Part shown: positions 6,986-33,282 of the stretch, piece after piece
Position numbering within the stretch: position 1 is the first letter of the stretch
Layout: each line of letters starts with the position of its first letter
Source of the DNA: a virus
DNA length: 44,748 nt
Strand: one strand, 5' to 3'
Virus record (IMG/VR): IMGVR_UViG_3300044726_000123
Location: 1-44,748 of that record
Position numbers and translations under genes: made by a program
The notes under the pieces: generated by a model
Told to the model about the DNA's origin: nothing
The model's input: the letters and a program-made list of their open reading frames with translations, nothing else
The model's database searches: none

Positions 6986-7176
6986 CCATCCAGGAGTGGG
7001 GATCCTGCCCACTGTGCCAGAAGGCGCACCAGATCGAGGATCACACCTACCGCATCAGCATCGACGGCCGGCTGCGCTTCATCTGCCAGTCCTGCCGCCC
7101 GACATCTCCTGCTTCCATGCCTCCTAGCGGCAGACCCAACGGCCCGGCCTCGCATAGAGAGGACAACCACAGATGA
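6982..7176 (+). CDS. Small zinc-ribbon protein
   Basis: A 64-residue protein with two knuckles, CPLC (about residues 9-12) and CQSC (about 35-38), separated by a beta-rich segment TYRISIDGRLRFI. This is the minimal zinc-ribbon pattern. The C-terminus is a Pro/Ser/Arg-rich tail. It overlaps both neighbours by 4 nt (ATGA), so it is translated as part of a coupled series. Nucleic-acid or protein binding is plausible. Confidence 0.65.
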   Translation: MTIQEWGSCPLCQKAHQIEDHTYRISIDGRLRFICQSCRPTSPASMPPSGRPNGPASHREDNHR

Positions 7177-7481
7177 CCTTTCACGCTCCCTCCTTCGGTG
7201 TTCCTGCCTTCGATCCCGTCCTGGCCGACGCCTGGCGCGAAAGCGCGCTGACCGTCGAGCGCAGCATTCGCATGATCCGGCAGCACCTGGACACGATCGA
7301 GCACGCGGACGATCGGCTGCGGTGCGGCGAGCTGCTGCATTCCCGCGCTTATGTTGCGACGTGCCGCAAGCTGCTGCCGTGGCACCTGTCTGTCTACCTG
7401 GCGGCTTTGCGGCAGGTCACCGAGGCCGAGATCAAGATGGGGCATATCGGCATGCCGTTCGCCAAGTCTTCAGAAGGATAA
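7173..7481 (+). CDS. Unknown helical protein
   Basis: A 102-residue protein, coupled by ATGA to the zinc-ribbon gene. It is predicted to be almost entirely alpha-helical (AWRESALTVERSIRMIRQHLDTIEHADD and later WHLSVYLAALRQVTEAEIKMG). No motif is recognised. Its stop is 4 nt before the ATG of the first repeat-bearing gene, which has an AAGGA site inside the end of this gene. Confidence 0.6.
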   Translation: MTFHAPSFGVPAFDPVLADAWRESALTVERSIRMIRQHLDTIEHADDRLRCGELLHSRAYVATCRKLLPWHLSVYLAALRQVTEAEIKMGHIGMPFAKSSEG

Positions 7482-7485
7482 TCCC

Positions 7486-8109
7486 ATGAGCGCCGAGCCG
7501 GCAGACTATATCCACAACATCGAATTCCAGCAGGCGATTGCCAAATGGCAGAACAGCGGCGGCACGTTCGGCGTGGCCTATGCCATGCTGTGCGCCGCCT
7601 ATGGACGGGGAGACGCGGGCCACCGTCAGGTTGCCGAAGAGGCCAGTATCGATGTGCCCGACGCCTCCCCACAAGATGCAGCGGAGGGCCAGAGGACCAT
7701 TGCCGACGAGGCCACCGAGTTTGTGCCCGATGCTGCACCCGAACGAAGCGGAGAGGGCCATTCGACGCATGCCGACAAGGCCATTCATCCTGTGCCCATC
7801 TCCGCTTCGGCCCGTGTCCTGCCCGGACACGCCAAGCACGGCATGGCGTCCATCAGCGCTGTGCAGGGCACCATGTCGAAGTCGCTGTTCGACCGCATCA
7901 AACTCCCGGACGGCCGCACGCTGCGCGAGGTCTGCTGGAGCGAATGCCCTAACCTCGCCACCCGCTACCGGCGCCTCTCGCGCATCCTCATGGCGCTATG
8001 GGCCCATGGAAAGCCGGTCGACCCGAACACGACGGTCGACAACCTCATCAACGATGCGGGGCTGAAGCAGATCGTGGATGCCGTGGAGAAATTCAATGAC
8101 ATACACTGA
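7486..8109 (+). CDS. Repeat-bearing protein with ADKA/VP motifs, unknown function
   Basis: A 207-residue protein starting at ATG 7486 behind AAGGA. Residues about 45-105 consist of three 23-residue units of the pattern G-(H/Q)-x3-A-(D/E)-x-A-x3-V-P. They are encoded by the DNA elements described at 7618-7797. After the repeats a different domain follows (SISAVQGTMSKSLFDRIKLPDGRTLREV, then helical to residue 207), which I cannot name. The gene overlaps the next repeat-bearing gene by 14 nt. Outside the repeats the two proteins are not alike, so the repeat has moved between unrelated contexts or been selected as DNA. Confidence 0.7.
   Translation: MSAEPADYIHNIEFQQAIAKWQNSGGTFGVAYAMLCAAYGRGDAGHRQVAEEASIDVPDASPQDAAEGQRTIADEATEFVPDAAPERSGEGHSTHADKAIHPVPISASARVLPGHAKHGMASISAVQGTMSKSLFDRIKLPDGRTLREVCWSECPNLATRYRRLSRILMALWAHGKPVDPNTTVDNLINDAGLKQIVDAVEKFNDIH
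7618..7797 (+). repeat. GGCCA-N9-TGCC element array A (6 copies in 3 units of 69 bp)
   Basis: GGCCA boxes start at 7618, 7641, 7687, 7710, 7756 and 7779, each followed after exactly 9 bases by TGCC. Within a unit the two elements are 23 bp apart, and units repeat every 69 bp (three times 23). All six copies are exact. Each element is also an imperfect inverted repeat (GGC-A against T-GCC), so hairpins are possible in single-stranded DNA or RNA. Confidence 0.85.
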
Positions 8110-9505
8110 TACGAATGGAGCGAAGGGCCGTCACCCCACTGCCGTCGAGGCCAGTCGACGAGTGCCCGACGCTCCACCCAATGACGGGGAGGGCCAAATC
8201 GCAGCTGCCGACAAGGCCAAGTTCGGGGTGCCCGACCCGTCGCCCAGCAACAGCAGAGCGGGCCATTCACGGAATGCCGACAAGGCCACTGCGGGAGTGC
8301 CCGTCTCTGCTGACCCGAACGATGGCGGAGATGGCCTCGGTCCGTCTGCCGACAAGGCCAAGCAACGTGTGCCCTCCTCGCCATCACCAAACAGTAGAGC
8401 GGGCCAAAGGCATGGTGCTGACAAGGCTAAAGGAGCGCTGCCCGTCTCTGCTGTGCTTGCCAAGCTTTACGAGCTGCAGGTCCGCCGCAAGTTCTACATC
8501 TCTGTCGTCAACAAGCAGACCAACGCCGCCAAGGCGCTTGTCCGCCGCGCGCTCGGTTGGCGCTACGACAGCGATGAAGGCTCCCGCACAAAGATGAACG
8601 GCAAGGCCGCGCGCATCGTCGCCGCGGCGATCGCCGGCAAGCCGCAGCGCCAAGAAGACGAGATCGCCTTCGCCTCGCTCTGGGACGACCTCCTGGTGGT
8701 CGCCGGGTCCATTGAGCCCTGCGCTGAGGCGCGGCATGACATCGAGCTGGCCATGGAGCGGGCCGTTCGCGGCCTGCCTGTCTACGCCTGGGCGAAAGAA
8801 GTGAAAGGACTCGGCGAAAGAGGCCTCGCCGTCATCCTGGCGGAAGCCGGCGATCTGTCTGGCTATCCGAAGAAGGGCCACCTGTGGAAGCGGCTCGGCC
8901 TCGCTCCCTTCAAGGGCAAAGCCTGTTCGACCTGGCGGCGCGAGGGCGGCCTGTCGGCCGCCGAGTGGGTCGAGGCCGGCTATTCGGCGCCCCGCCTTGC
9001 CCAGATATTCGCTGTCATCTCGAAGCCGCTCCTACAGGCGCAGCTCGTCAGCAAGGAGAAGTCCAGCACGAAGCACGGGCAGGCCAAAGGTCCGTATGGC
9101 GCGATCTACGTGCGTCGCCGCGAGCATCTGGACGAAGCGCACCCCGACTGGACGCCGAAGCACTGCCAGATGGATGCGCTAAGGGTGATGACGCAGATCC
9201 TGCTGCGCGACCTGCTGCGCGAATGGAAAGCAACAGAGGACCATCCCGGCGTTGCCAACGAGGCCAGAGTGGAAGTGTCCTCTGCTAAACGCCGGGAGGC
9301 CATCCCTGCCGTGCCGACAAAGGCTAGAGCGTGGTTGCCTCCCGGCGAGACGGACGGGCGGACGGCTATTCGGCCCGTGTCTGAAAGGACCATTCGGAGG
9401 TTGCCGTCTGCCCGCGCCGTCGAGAAGGCCAGCAATGTCGTGCCAGAAATGGCCAATCAAGCCTTGCCTTCCGACGGCGCTGACTTGCACGAAGGCGTGG
9501 GATGA
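8096..9505 (+). CDS. Helix-hairpin-helix protein with IS110-transposase-like C-terminal domain, flanked by repeats
   Basis: A 469-residue protein starting at ATG 8096 (GGAGAA upstream). Residues about 10-115 and 380-458 consist of repeat peptides (ADKA, VP and LP motifs) encoded by arrays B and C. The central domain (about 118-378) is basic. At 234-272 it contains VKGLGERGLAVILAEAGDLSG followed by LWKRLGLAPF, which closely resembles the helix-hairpin-helix of the IS110/IS116/IS902 transposase C-terminal domain (PF02371). The N-terminal DEDD catalytic domain of IS110 enzymes is not seen, and no transposon ends flank it, so it is not an insertion sequence. It probably binds DNA. Recognition of the surrounding arrays is a testable guess. 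Confidence 0.75.
   Translation: MTYTDTNGAKGRHPTAVEASRRVPDAPPNDGEGQIAAADKAKFGVPDPSPSNSRAGHSRNADKATAGVPVSADPNDGGDGLGPSADKAKQRVPSSPSPNSRAGQRHGADKAKGALPVSAVLAKLYELQVRRKFYISVVNKQTNAAKALVRRALGWRYDSDEGSRTKMNGKAARIVAAAIAGKPQRQEDEIAFASLWDDLLVVAGSIEPCAEARHDIELAMERAVRGLPVYAWAKEVKGLGERGLAVILAEAGDLSGYPKKGHLWKRLGLAPFKGKACSTWRREGGLSAAEWVEAGYSAPRLAQIFAVISKPLLQAQLVSKEKSSTKHGQAKGPYGAIYVRRREHLDEAHPDWTPKHCQMDALRVMTQILLRDLLREWKATEDHPGVANEARVEVSSAKRREAIPAVPTKARAWLPPGETDGRTAIRPVSERTIRRLPSARAVEKASNVVPEMANQALPSDGADLHEGVG
8126..8443 (+). repeat. GGCCA-N9-TGCC element array B (10 copies in 5 units)
   Basis: Boxes start at 8126, 8149, 8192, 8215, 8261, 8284, 8333, 8356, 8402 and 8425. Every one has the 9-base spacer to TGCC or TGCT. 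Units are 66, 69, 72 and 69 bp apart, always in whole codons. Four of the ten copies carry a single-base change in a box (8126, 8333, 8402 and 8425). The array encodes the N-terminal repeat region of the helix-hairpin-helix protein. Confidence 0.85.
9239..9468 (+). repeat. GGCCA-N9-TGCC element array C (8 degenerate copies)
   Basis: Elements begin at 9239, 9262, 9298, 9322, 9364, 9388, 9427 and 9451, with spacer 9 in all. Box sequences vary more here (GACCA, GGCTA, TGTC), but the pair at 9427 and 9451 is exact. From 9298 on, pairs are spaced 24 rather than 23 bp and the first element of each pair is read in the other frame, giving A-x3-V-P peptides twice instead of G-H-x3-A then A-x3-V-P. Confidence 0.75.
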
Positions 9506-9537
9506 GCGCGCTTAGGAAAAACCAACAGGAGAAACCG

Positions 9538-9882
9538 ATGACCGAGATGGAACGCGCCCTGAACCAGGCGATAGACGAGGACAACATGTCGCCGCCGGAG
9601 CCGGTGAAGCTGCGCACCGCCCGGCCGCTAACGCTGGCCGAGATGGCCTCGACGATCGACCGCGCCCACATCGACATGGCGGCGCGCTTGCGCAAGGAAG
9701 GCATCGACGCCCAGTGCCTTGCCGAGGAGCGGGTGACCGCTGCCCATGCGAAGTATGCCCGCCTGTTATCCGAAGAGACGGCCCGCCTAACGCGCGAAAG
9801 AGACGACGCCATACGCCTGGCTGAGGTAGACTACCGCAACAAGCTTCACGAGCTCGCGGGTCTAGTCAGGCAACGCCCGTGA
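9538..9882 (+). CDS. Small coiled-coil protein
   Basis: A 114-residue protein starting at ATG 9538 with AGGAGA 5 nt upstream. An in-frame ATG at 9502 overlaps the previous stop as ATGA and would add 12 residues. It is helical throughout, with a long charged coiled coil over the last 70 residues (AARLRKEGID, then EETARLTRERDDAIRLAEVDY). The first 40 residues are acidic and proline-bearing. No function can be assigned. It is followed by a 205-bp non-coding stretch. Confidence 0.6.
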   Translation: MTEMERALNQAIDEDNMSPPEPVKLRTARPLTLAEMASTIDRAHIDMAARLRKEGIDAQCLAEERVTAAHAKYARLLSEETARLTRERDDAIRLAEVDYRNKLHELAGLVRQRP

Positions 9883-9980
9883 GAGCAAGCTCACCGGGTC
9901 GATCCCCAAACCCGCCCGGCGGGCGAGCCGCGCGCCTAATTCCCCCAAATGCCGGCGCGCGGCAGCTCTCGCTTCGCCTC

Positions 9981-10015
9981 CCCGCAGCCGGTTTCCTGTC
10001 CTTTGCGGCTGCGGG
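9981..10015 (+). other. GC-rich hairpin in the 205-bp gap at 9883-10087
   Basis: CCCGCAGCCG (9981-9990) pairs perfectly with CGGCTGCGGG (10006-10015) around a 15-nt loop. GCCTC (9976-9980) and GAGGC (10022-10026) can extend the stem. No T run follows, so it is not a simple terminator. The gap holds no convincing gene and ends with the Shine-Dalgarno of the next gene. It may be a transcript-processing or attenuation structure. Confidence 0.4.
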
Positions 10016-31044: not shown

Positions 31045-33282
31045 TCACAGCACGGTCCCCGCGAAGTCCTTGAGCGGCCCGACCACCTTGCCGTAGGTCT
31101 GGCCGAGCCAATACTGGACGTGAATGTCGCCGTTCTGCCCGCCGCCCTGCGCGGTATAGTCGATCAGGCTGACTGTGGTGTCGCCGTCGTCGAAGGCCGA
31201 GCAGCCCCACAGAAACATCTTCTTGGTGGTGCCAACGCCTTGATAGGCATCGTGCCAAAAGCATGCCTTCGGCGAGCCGGTGCCCTTCGGGCGCGCGGCC
31301 TGCACGTTGTAGTTCAGCGAATGCACGCCATTGACATCGGCAATCACTGCGCCGTTGCAGTCACCGCAGAAGACGTTGGCCCTGACAATGTGCATGCTGT
31401 CATGCGAGGTCGAGCCATTGGAGCTAGCCGAAAGCGCGACCTGGTCCGGAAACAGATTGAAGCCATTGTCGTAAGCACTGCAGTCGTACTCGTAGACGGT
31501 GATGAACTCGCCCTTCTGGCCGGTCGTCACGAAGGAATGGTAGTTGTGCCCGTCGACGTGGGAGTAACGGGCATGGCAGTTCTCCTTCACAATCACGTCG
31601 GCGTCGTAGATTTCAAAACCGTTGCCGTTGCCGTAGGCAAGACAGTTCTTCATGCCCATGCGCGCCAGCGTCGGAGCGCCCGTGGTGACCGGGCGATAGC
31701 GGAAAGCCGCCGTCGAGACCGCACCCGAGTTGGCGCAGAACTCCAGGTTCTCGACGAGGATGACCCCCGCCACCGTGTCCAGCGCCTGCTGCAACTCAGT
31801 GCGATAGGCGCTGCGCGTGTACATCCAGCCATCGGCTGGGTTGGGTTTGCGGTTGTCGATCATATGGACGTAGACTTTGAAGGTGCCGCTATCCCACCAA
31901 AAGGTGCCGGGCGTCGCCTCGCATGCCGCCTGTGACGCTGCGACCACGATCGGCATCGGGATGCCGCGCGCATCGAGGTACTTCCTGTCGAACTGGGCGC
32001 GGTAATAGTCGTTGCTGGTCAACGCGTTCGAGACATACGCACCAGCGCTGCCACTCGCCACGAAATTGAAGAAGGCGGCATCATAGCTCTCGCGCATCGA
32101 CACGAAACGGGTACGCCCTGTCGGACCCTCGCCGATGATCTTGAACTTGCCCGAGAAGACGACGCCGGCGGTGGAACCCGCCGACAGGTAGCCGACCCAG
32201 TCGTCCTTCATGTGGATGACGGCGGGTGATACCGCGTTGACGCGGGCATAGTCCCATGTCTTCCAGGGACTGCCCTCGGTCGTGCCGGGGTTGGCGTTGT
32301 TGCCGGTCGTGTAGTTCACATAGTAATGGTTGCAGGTCTCGGAGAGCGTAAAGTCGATCAGGTCGTAGGGCTTCTGGTAGAAGCGCACGGCGCTGCCGTC
32401 CCAGTAGATCCTCGCATTGAGCGGGTTGTTGAAGGTGCCGGGCAGCGTGATCTCGCCCATCGGCAGGCGGGCGACCGCAGCCTTGCCTAGCGGGTTGCCC
32501 ATCCTGATCCGCACCCAGGCGCCGGCCGAAGCCAGCTTGTCGTCGGCCTTGATGTAGTCGTACTCGTTGGCGTCGGCAGCAACCTGCGTCGAGTAGTTGC
32601 CGCTCCTGAAATGGTAGAAGCCCTCGCGGTTGGCGTCGGTGCGGTAGGCGACCGTGATCGTCGACGAGGCCAGCGCCTTCAGCGTGGTGAGGTTGACCCG
32701 CGGCAGCGCGCCGGTGACCAGCGCCGCTGACGCCGCCGAATCCGCCGCGTCCTGTACAGATTCCGCAACAGCGTCGAGAGCGGCCGCGCCCGCTGCCTCG
32801 ACCGCGTCAACGGCGGCCTCGCCGGCTGCCTCAACCGCATCGACCGCCGCCTCGCCCGCTGCCGTGGCGGCATCGGCCGCATCCTGCAGAGCGTCCTCAG
32901 CGTCACCAACCGTGTCGTAGGACAGGAAGAAGCCGATTGAGATCTCGTCGTGGCCGATCTCCGGCTCCGGCGTCAGGAAAGCGAAGGTCTGGCCCTCGTG
33001 CGCCGTGCCTTCCGCGACATGCACCGTCACGCCCTTGTTGATGGCCCTGGGCGAGCGGGCGTCGCTGGCCCTGTACCATTCACCCTCGCTCGCCCCGTAG
33101 ATGCCGTTCTGGCGCTGGTCCGCCTGGTCCTTGAGCAGCACCCGGTCGCCGGGCTCGACCGTCACCCCGTCGATTGTCAGCAGCCCGCCGGCGGCGGGAT
33201 TGATGTTGCTGGTGCTGGCGACGCGAACCGGCTCTCTCGAACCAGCCAGAAGCCGCGAGGTGGAGGTGGCGGGACGTGCCAT
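31045..33282 (-). CDS. Tail spike / fibre with beta-helix receptor domain
   Basis: A 745-residue protein starting at ATG 33282, 1 nt after the previous stop. Residues 1-125 look like a head-binding adaptor (TIDGVTVEPGDRVLLKDQADQRQNGIY). Then comes an Ala-rich hendecad coiled coil (about 137-170), a linker, and from about 290 a right-handed beta-helix with recurring Asn/Gly/Val turns and scattered Trp and His, similar to polysaccharide-degrading tail spikes. It is probably a trimer that recognises or cuts host surface glycans. No exact catalytic pair can be assigned. Confidence 0.75.
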   Translation of the reverse strand: MARPATSTSRLLAGSREPVRVASTSNINPAAGGLLTIDGVTVEPGDRVLLKDQADQRQNGIYGASEGEWYRASDARSPRAINKGVTVHVAEGTAHEGQTFAFLTPEPEIGHDEISIGFFLSYDTVGDAEDALQDAADAATAAGEAAVDAVEAAGEAAVDAVEAAGAAALDAVAESVQDAADSAASAALVTGALPRVNLTTLKALASSTITVAYRTDANREGFYHFRSGNYSTQVAADANEYDYIKADDKLASAGAWVRIRMGNPLGKAAVARLPMGEITLPGTFNNPLNARIYWDGSAVRFYQKPYDLIDFTLSETCNHYYVNYTTGNNANPGTTEGSPWKTWDYARVNAVSPAVIHMKDDWVGYLSAGSTAGVVFSGKFKIIGEGPTGRTRFVSMRESYDAAFFNFVASGSAGAYVSNALTSNDYYRAQFDRKYLDARGIPMPIVVAASQAACEATPGTFWWDSGTFKVYVHMIDNRKPNPADGWMYTRSAYRTELQQALDTVAGVILVENLEFCANSGAVSTAAFRYRPVTTGAPTLARMGMKNCLAYGNGNGFEIYDADVIVKENCHARYSHVDGHNYHSFVTTGQKGEFITVYEYDCSAYDNGFNLFPDQVALSASSNGSTSHDSMHIVRANVFCGDCNGAVIADVNGVHSLNYNVQAARPKGTGSPKACFWHDAYQGVGTTKKMFLWGCSAFDDGDTTVSLIDYTAQGGGQNGDIHVQYWLGQTYGKVVGPLKDFAGTVL
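32774..32872 (-). repeat. 33-bp (11-residue) tandem repeat inside the tail spike
   Basis: Three imperfect 33-bp copies encode the 11-residue unit AAGEAAVDAVE. An 11-residue period is typical of right-handed or nearly straight trimeric coiled coils. It links the adaptor to the receptor domain and can change in length by unit slippage. Confidence 0.6.

Follow-up and report, generated by a model that had tools for sequence, protein, structure and literature searches.

The window analyzed in this study, meaning the whole stretch of DNA considered here, spans a complete virus record of 44.7 kb. This record represents a temperate phage and carries genes for an S24/CI-type repressor, an integrase, a primase and a helicase, as well as podovirus-like structural genes. 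Two adjacent genes on its plus strand, a partner gene referred to as gene 1 and a downstream gene referred to as tasA, contain repeated elements of the form GGCCA-N9-TGCC. Fifteen exact copies are present on the plus strand between positions 7600 and 9500, while dinucleotide shuffles contained on average 0.02 copies and at most one. Spacer lengths of 3 to 15 other than 9 together gave a single match to the box pattern, located in the same region (7600-9500). When nine inexact copies are included the total rises to 24 elements, and the spacer has a length of 9 in all of them. An earlier note on this DNA had described 24 elements, 15 of them exact, with a fixed 9-base spacer. This description is borne out by the comparison of the pattern count with the shuffles and with the other spacer lengths; the note's nine inexact elements and its division into three arrays, with the coordinates given there, were confirmed as well.

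The 24 elements are half-units that form 12 units, distributed over array A (3 units), array B (5 units) and array C (4 units). The units start at positions 7618, 7687 and 7756 in array A, at 8126, 8192, 8261, 8333 and 8402 in array B, and at 9239, 9298, 9364 and 9427 in array C. The spacing between units is 69 bp in array A, 66-72 bp in array B and 59-66 bp in array C, which refines the usual spacing of 69 bp previously proposed for the pairs in A and B. Every unit follows the same plan: one GGCCA-N9-TGCC element, a loop of 5 or 6 nt (usually GACAA-like), a second GGCCA-N9-TGCC element, and inverted-repeat arms on the outside. The spacers are 9 nt long in 12 of the 12 units in the window, and likewise in relatives. 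Three units of array C have a 6-nt loop (a 24-bp offset between the halves) and a codon phase differing from that in arrays A and B. The earlier note had counted nine elements read in one way and fifteen in another, which is correct, and had concluded that the same DNA is used in two frames. The split itself stands, but for arrays A and B it follows from the 23-bp distance between the two halves of a unit, and it is the three 6-nt-loop units of array C that sit in another codon phase. The genes and units are as follows, with the two spacers of a unit separated by a slash.

7486..8109, plus strand: gene 1, upstream partner gene (207 aa), an open frame in which array A occupies a mid-gene position, flanked by conserved N- and C-terminal domains
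7837-8103, plus strand: C-domain of gene 1, detected in 35 of 48 tasA loci
8096..9505, plus strand: tasA, an ORF of 469 aa with the predicted Nop-domain core at about 8456-9232, array B in-frame in the N-terminal part and array C in the C-terminal part
7607..7670, plus strand: array A unit 1, core 7618-7658, arms 7607-7617 / 7659-7670, spacers CCGTCAGGT / GTATCGATG
7677..7737, plus strand: array A unit 2, core 7687-7727, spacers GAGGACCAT / CCGAGTTTG
7744..7809, plus strand: array A unit 3, core 7756-7796, spacers TTCGACGCA / TTCATCCTG
8116..8176, plus strand: array B unit 1, core 8126-8166, spacers TCACCCCAC / GTCGACGAG
8183..8241, plus strand: array B unit 2, core 8192-8232, spacers AATCGCAGC / AGTTCGGGG
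8251..8312, plus strand: array B unit 3, core 8261-8301, spacers TTCACGGAA / CTGCGGGAG
8321..8385, plus strand: array B unit 4, core 8333-8373, spacers CGGTCCGTC / AGCAACGTG
8391..8454, plus strand: array B unit 5, core 8402-8442, spacers AAGGCATGG / AAGGAGCGC
9234..9284, plus strand: array C unit 1, core 9239-9279, short arms CAGAG/CTCTG, degenerate boxes GACCA and TGTC
9290..9347, plus strand: array C unit 2, core 9298-9339, 6-nt loop, arms CGCCGGGA/TCCCGGCG, codon phase 2
9355..9414, plus strand: array C unit 3, core 9364-9405, 6-nt loop, arms CGGGCGGAC/GTCTGCCCG, codon phase 2
9417..9477, plus strand: array C unit 4, core 9427-9468, 6-nt loop, arms CCGTCGaGAA/TTCcCGACGG, codon phase 2

The arm sequences vary from unit to unit, and within every unit the two arms are complementary. 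Among 121 units that were picked by their boxes alone, own arms pair at a mean of −19.9 kcal/mol, compared to −10.9 kcal/mol when arms are swapped between units. In an alignment of 24 units, the covariation score of the outer helix is 0.324, as opposed to 0.141 after shuffling and 0.08-0.19 in slid registers, and 50 compensatory cells were counted where 22 are expected. Ten units of the window have RNA fold z-scores from −2.2 to −4.8. In the predicted fold, an internal loop is formed by the two opposing 9-nt segments, with the arm helix below and a short apical hairpin above. An Rfam scan of positions 7000-10000 gave no match close to the gathering score, and sigma-70 promoters and terminators were found around the arrays at chance level only.

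In the window and in many relatives, the tasA start overlaps the gene 1 stop, upstream of the N-terminal array. Array C ends within tasA, the stop codon of which overlaps the ATG (9502) of the next gene. For the coding test, we took the reading frame from the conserved C-domain of gene 1 alone, such that the frame was fixed by homology; a count of stop codons in the frame of tasA would be circular and was left out. Among the relatives, 58 of 59 distinct upstream units lie in one open frame with this C-domain, the sole out-of-frame unit (L066:3088) being located outside the ORF. In the same test, the in-frame spacer codons include no stops (0 of 238), whereas the two alternative frames have 23 stops in 588 codons (p about 7e-5). 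Units between the gene 1 stop and the tasA core are in the open frame of tasA in 25 of 32 cases, as are 21 of the 31 units located 3' of the core. The remaining units of these two sets lie outside the tasA ORF, which means that the family covers both placements. Indeed, a minority of relatives has intergenic arrays, either upstream (L058, L071 and L079) or downstream (L063, L066 and L074), so coding placement is common, yet not obligatory. Where the boxes are translated they are maintained at synonymous positions: the last-box proline codons are CCC in 8 of 8 cases (background 23%), the box alanine codons are GCC in 14 of 16 cases (background 46%), and the box glycine codons are GGC in 8 of 8 cases (background 56%). 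The C-domain of gene 1 has no match in Pfam and no fold match in the PDB, and its matches in PHROG are weak and to families of unknown function.

Profile scans with TasA identified 44 viral loci and three bacterial ones, in a Bauldia MAG, Aminobacter and Mesorhizobium; within the order to which the Mesorhizobium locus belongs, just 2 of 397 sampled genomes have a tasA locus. In the 48 loci, 121 box-exact units are located near tasA and on the tasA strand, three lie elsewhere on the plus strand, and two are on the opposite strand anywhere. At least one unit is present in 44 of the 48 tasA loci, and three or more in 32. In related phages, the units occur within about 1.5 kb of tasA and are strand-specific. 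The exact DNA pattern was found in none of 84,980 bacterial genomes because the letters of the boxes and loops vary among relatives; the tasA profile then recovered three genomic loci. Searches of phages and plasmids with blastn and tblastn gave no match to the arrays and a single TasA homologue, in Rhizobium phage RHph_X2_25, and the locus of this cultured homologue contains no recognizable unit.

The evolution of the spacers can be followed in four close relatives (L042-L045), in which gene 1 and tasA align nearly gap-free. Mean pairwise identity among these loci is 26.5% for spacer A and 31.8% for spacer B, where 25% is expected at random, compared to 90% for the boxes, 93% for the arms and 94% for the other gene sequence. 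All changes are in-frame, and there are no indels. Since the flanks, including synonymous sites, are about 94% identical and the spacers are near random, the spacers evolve far faster than the adjacent sites, and such turnover amid conserved genes is incompatible with selection on the peptide. Substitution accounts for the change of at least a subset of the spacers, because a few pairs between relatives have only 2-3 differences in 9 positions. The contrast between spacers and flanks identifies the spacers as the rapidly changing part of the units that bears information, as guides should be; that is to say, hypervariable predicted guides are located within genes.

The core of the tasA product spans approximately residues 120-380 and has a weak, partial match to Transposase_20 (PF02371) as well as matches to transposases in PHROG. 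A core profile built from seven relatives matched two families in the PDB, TasR (9mty; E 9.6e-6) and TasH (E 2.9e-5), and the same profile gave no match to IS110 recombinases in the PDB. The AlphaFold model of TasA has a mean pLDDT of 78, residues 138-167 being poor (pLDDT below 50). In a Foldseek search with this model TasR 9mty ranked first (E 2e-4, probability 1.00), followed by ISCro4/IS621, with Nop5 and Prp31 far weaker than TasR; the TM-scores of the model to TasR are about 0.5. By profile and fold comparison TasA is thus assigned to the Nop superfamily. No fused nuclease domain was matched, Pfam giving only the partial Transposase_20 hit, and the tasA product therefore corresponds to TasA. 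The N-terminal part of the protein is the peptide encoded by the array.

TIGR-Tas systems were described in 2025 (Faure et al., Science 2025, PMC12045711). According to the main text of that paper, TIGR RNA units contain two spacers of about 9 nt (8-12 nt), each between a box C (CCA) and a box D (UG), the two spacers, A and B, pair with opposite DNA strands, and arrays are placed upstream or downstream of tas genes. Two Tas clades have 'stem-loop arrays', in which variable palindromes replace the edge repeats; the example given there is intergenic. For TasA of a Peromyscus leucopus gut contig the paper reports 13 units in three sub-arrays that are processed to single hairpins (PMC12045711). 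In the phage units, the GGCCA and TGCC boxes contain CCA and UG at the positions expected for TIGR units. Based on these sequence comparisons, we consider it very probable that the 12 units are guide cassettes of a TIGR-TasA stem-loop-array system in a temperate phage, placed in-frame in gene 1 and tasA. The sequence-level features of TIGR-Tas are all found at the locus: a Nop protein related to TasR and TasH with no nuclease matched, paired 9-nt spacers, palindromic arms, arrays on the same strand and variable spacers. The present data demonstrate the anatomy of the units, their covariation, their association with one strand and one locus, their coding placement, the hypervariability of the spacers and the Nop-domain homology. 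Being a member of TIGR-Tas, the locus would not represent a new kind of system.

The closest resemblance is to the TIGR-TasA stem-loop arrays of PMC12045711, with which the phage locus shares a solo, nuclease-less Nop protein, two spacers framed by box C/D, variable palindromic arms, several sub-arrays around tasA and a mobile-element setting. It differs in that its arrays lie in-frame, in the middle of the partner gene and at both ends of tasA, unlike the published TIGR-TasA as far as the main text describes it. Further differences are the loop, which is GAYAA-like (5 nt) or 6 nt long and shorter in other relatives, and the 9-nt spacers found throughout the exact-box units of the phage tasA family. 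The Nop fold, the box C/D logic and the tandem 9-nt spacers are shared with the dual-repeat arrays of TIGR-TasR and TIGR-TasH (PDB 9mty; 21kl and related entries), but no RuvC or HNH nuclease is matched in the phage TasA and stem arms take the place of the edge repeats. Box C/D snoRNAs with Nop5 also have paired C/D motifs around guide segments and a Nop-fold partner, whereas the present system is phage-borne and has no L7Ae/K-turn or fibrillarin known; the fold match between the Nop5 structure 3pla and the TasA model is weak (Foldseek E above 1).

Several other explanations have to be weighed against guide cassettes. A protein-level repeat, in which selection for the peptide G-H/Q-x3-ADKA-x3-VP would have produced the DNA pattern as a side effect, has in its favor that the peptides of arrays A and B look repetitive and that the units sit in open frames. 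It is already refuted by the close relatives, which keep the boxes while the spacer-encoded peptides are scrambled, together with the covariation of the arms as base pairs; moreover, in array C the boxes persist in a different codon phase and encode other peptides, the synonymous positions in box codons are fixed, and some relatives carry such units outside any ORF. Its probability is therefore negligible. The earlier note had argued for selection on nucleic acid rather than protein, rightly so, and the test that it had itself proposed comes out in its favor, with box bases fixed at synonymous sites and spacer-encoded peptides scrambled. Of the options that the note had raised, an RNA structure was the right one, as the unit arms are base-paired and covarying. 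A plain binding-site array is disfavored by the strand bias and the arm covariation. In this alternative, TasA or another phage protein would bind duplex DNA sites of an operator, iteron or parS-like type. Conserved boxes that are repeated at a fixed spacing beside a nucleic-acid-binding protein would suit such an array. However, the units are on the tasA coding strand (121 versus 2), the arms change sequence yet stay complementary, of which duplex recognition has no need, the 9-nt segments are wholly variable at constant length, and the closest solved relatives of TasA bind guide RNA, all of which makes this explanation very unlikely.

Palindromic units within open reading frames are known from the Rickettsia palindromic elements, and the earlier note had proposed a coding-tolerant mobile repeat, to which in-frame palindromic units within genes would conform. 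This candidate was rejected because the units are confined to tas loci and are not copies of each other. Arms and spacers differ between units and only the boxes are common, merely 3 of 124 box-exact plus-strand units lie away from tasA, and the exact pattern is unmatched in the bacterial genome collection. Unlike the Rickettsia elements as commonly described, the phage units are not dispersed but occur in one locus type with variable arms and spacers, and we give a mobile repeat practically no chance. It is also highly improbable that the units are bridge-RNA loops of a decayed IS110-family transposon, even though the partial Transposase_20 match, the 'transposase' matches in PHROG and the presence of ISCro4/IS621 among the fold matches point in that direction. 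IS110 elements such as IS621 and ISCro4 do have a distantly homologous RNA-binding domain and guides in internal loops of RNA helices. Nevertheless, the N-terminal DEDD/RuvC domain is not matched in Pfam and the phage TasA thus appears without a DEDD domain, TasR and TasH score far above IS110 recombinases, the three arrays comprise 12 tandem units where a single bridge RNA with two loops would be expected, nothing indicates an element with ends, and the two-gene arrangement is kept in dozens of phages. Finally, the array could be a true TIGR array with spacers that are neutrally drifting dead guides. Point substitution does occur, as judged from the spacer pairs with 2-3 differences in 9 positions, and the target searches yielded no match above chance. 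Against this, the spacers are near random compared to about 94% identity in the flanks, including synonymous sites, and the boxes and arms are maintained, so that we regard dead guides as unlikely. As a whole, the reading of the earlier note is partly supported: it had missed that the elements pair into units with palindromic arms, that the spacers are hypervariable and that the arrays probably encode guide RNAs.

For the target searches on the assumption of functional guide cassettes, we made use of the published cleavage rule. TIGR-Tas cleavage leaves 8-nt 3' overhangs (PMC12045711), which implies that the top strand of the target reads spacer A first and then spacer B in reverse complement. 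The spacers of the window gave no self-target above control in their own phage. No excess of matches was found for 203 distinct units in 1.77 Mb of related phage records, in a search that covered both orders and gaps of 0-2 bp with shuffled spacer pairs as control. An exact scan of IMG/VR with one unit resulted in one match, compared to two for the reversed-order control, and when 41 related records were scanned at up to 3 mismatches with a 20-nt pattern, made from a single guide and a 2-bp gap, the only matches resembled those of its backwards control.

By analogy with the TasR system, the guide cassettes may function as follows. The gene 1-tasA mRNA would double as guide precursor in one message, from which a host RNase would free single hairpins, each of which would then be held by a TasA dimer at its two box C/D sites. 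Spacers A and B would pair with opposite DNA strands, such that a target of about 18 bp is sampled on both of them. The nuclease-less TasA would bind and bend this target without cleavage; its most likely role would be that of a roadblock or repressor acting on a competing mobile element or on a host site. Excision of guides from the tasA message would be predicted to destroy that message, in which case the supply of TasA and the supply of guides would be coupled. More speculatively, the guide arrays could be dual-use sequence in translated genes, subject to a dedicated in-place rewriting of the 9-nt spacers that keeps the frame and introduces no indels, with the TasA and partner mRNA also being diced into guides, resulting in effector-guide feedback; we put this forward only as a tentative possibility.

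Compared to the main text of PMC12045711, the in-frame arrays in the partner gene and tasA, the partner gene itself and the visible in-place turnover of spacers appear to be new, but since this comparison covers the main text only, priority is uncertain. An RNA-guide array superimposed on protein-coding sequence is a placement absent from that main text, and coding-embedded arrays would be overlooked by searches limited to non-coding sequence. The present analysis provides a search pattern for more such systems, namely paired CCA-N9-TG with complementary arms. The close relatives in which all spacers have changed and the rest is fixed make spacer turnover measurable, and the conserved partner gene beside tasA in most loci is a direct lead to the function of TasA. 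The authors of PMC12045711 name three open points, namely where spacers come from and how they turn over, what the native targets are, and what the nuclease-less TasA does, and the tasA family bears on all of them.

Two prophage records, IMGVR_UViG_2894228515_000002 and IMGVR_UViG_2894228515_000005, derive from the same isolate genome, as indicated by their record identifiers. The gene 1-tasA region is nearly identical in these two prophages, while their spacers are entirely different.

The units themselves also vary among the related loci. The segment from box D to the next box C is 9-10 nt long in the units of the window (the loop plus flanking pairs), and 4 nt long in a sub-group of six loci (L047, L057, L065, L066, L068 and L083). 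This 4-nt type accounts for 55 of the 121 box-exact units. In two of these six loci, arrays were found past the stop codon of tasA:

L066, 4884-5168: array downstream of tasA
L057, 4665-5051: array downstream of tasA

Both are located wholly or largely within small ORFs of their own, and the codon phases are mixed among their units. A separate 33-bp tandem repeat (2.5 copies, window 32780-32863) is present inside a virion-protein ORF.

Gene 1 ends in a conserved family domain, which was present in 35 of the 48 tasA loci and had neither a Pfam nor a PDB-fold match:

Window 7837-8103: C-terminal domain of gene 1, ~90 aa, consensus ..DxxKxxDGRxIGDxxxxE..

A tasA homologue is also encoded by Rhizobium phage RHph_X2_25 (MW960032.1, 2540-4606), which was deposited with the named host Sinorhizobium americanum X2_25. 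The preceding gene looks similar to gene 1 when judged by eye, and both genes are annotated as 'hypothetical protein'. Using the present boxes, no recognisable unit was identified. RHph_X2_25 is a possible experimental system.
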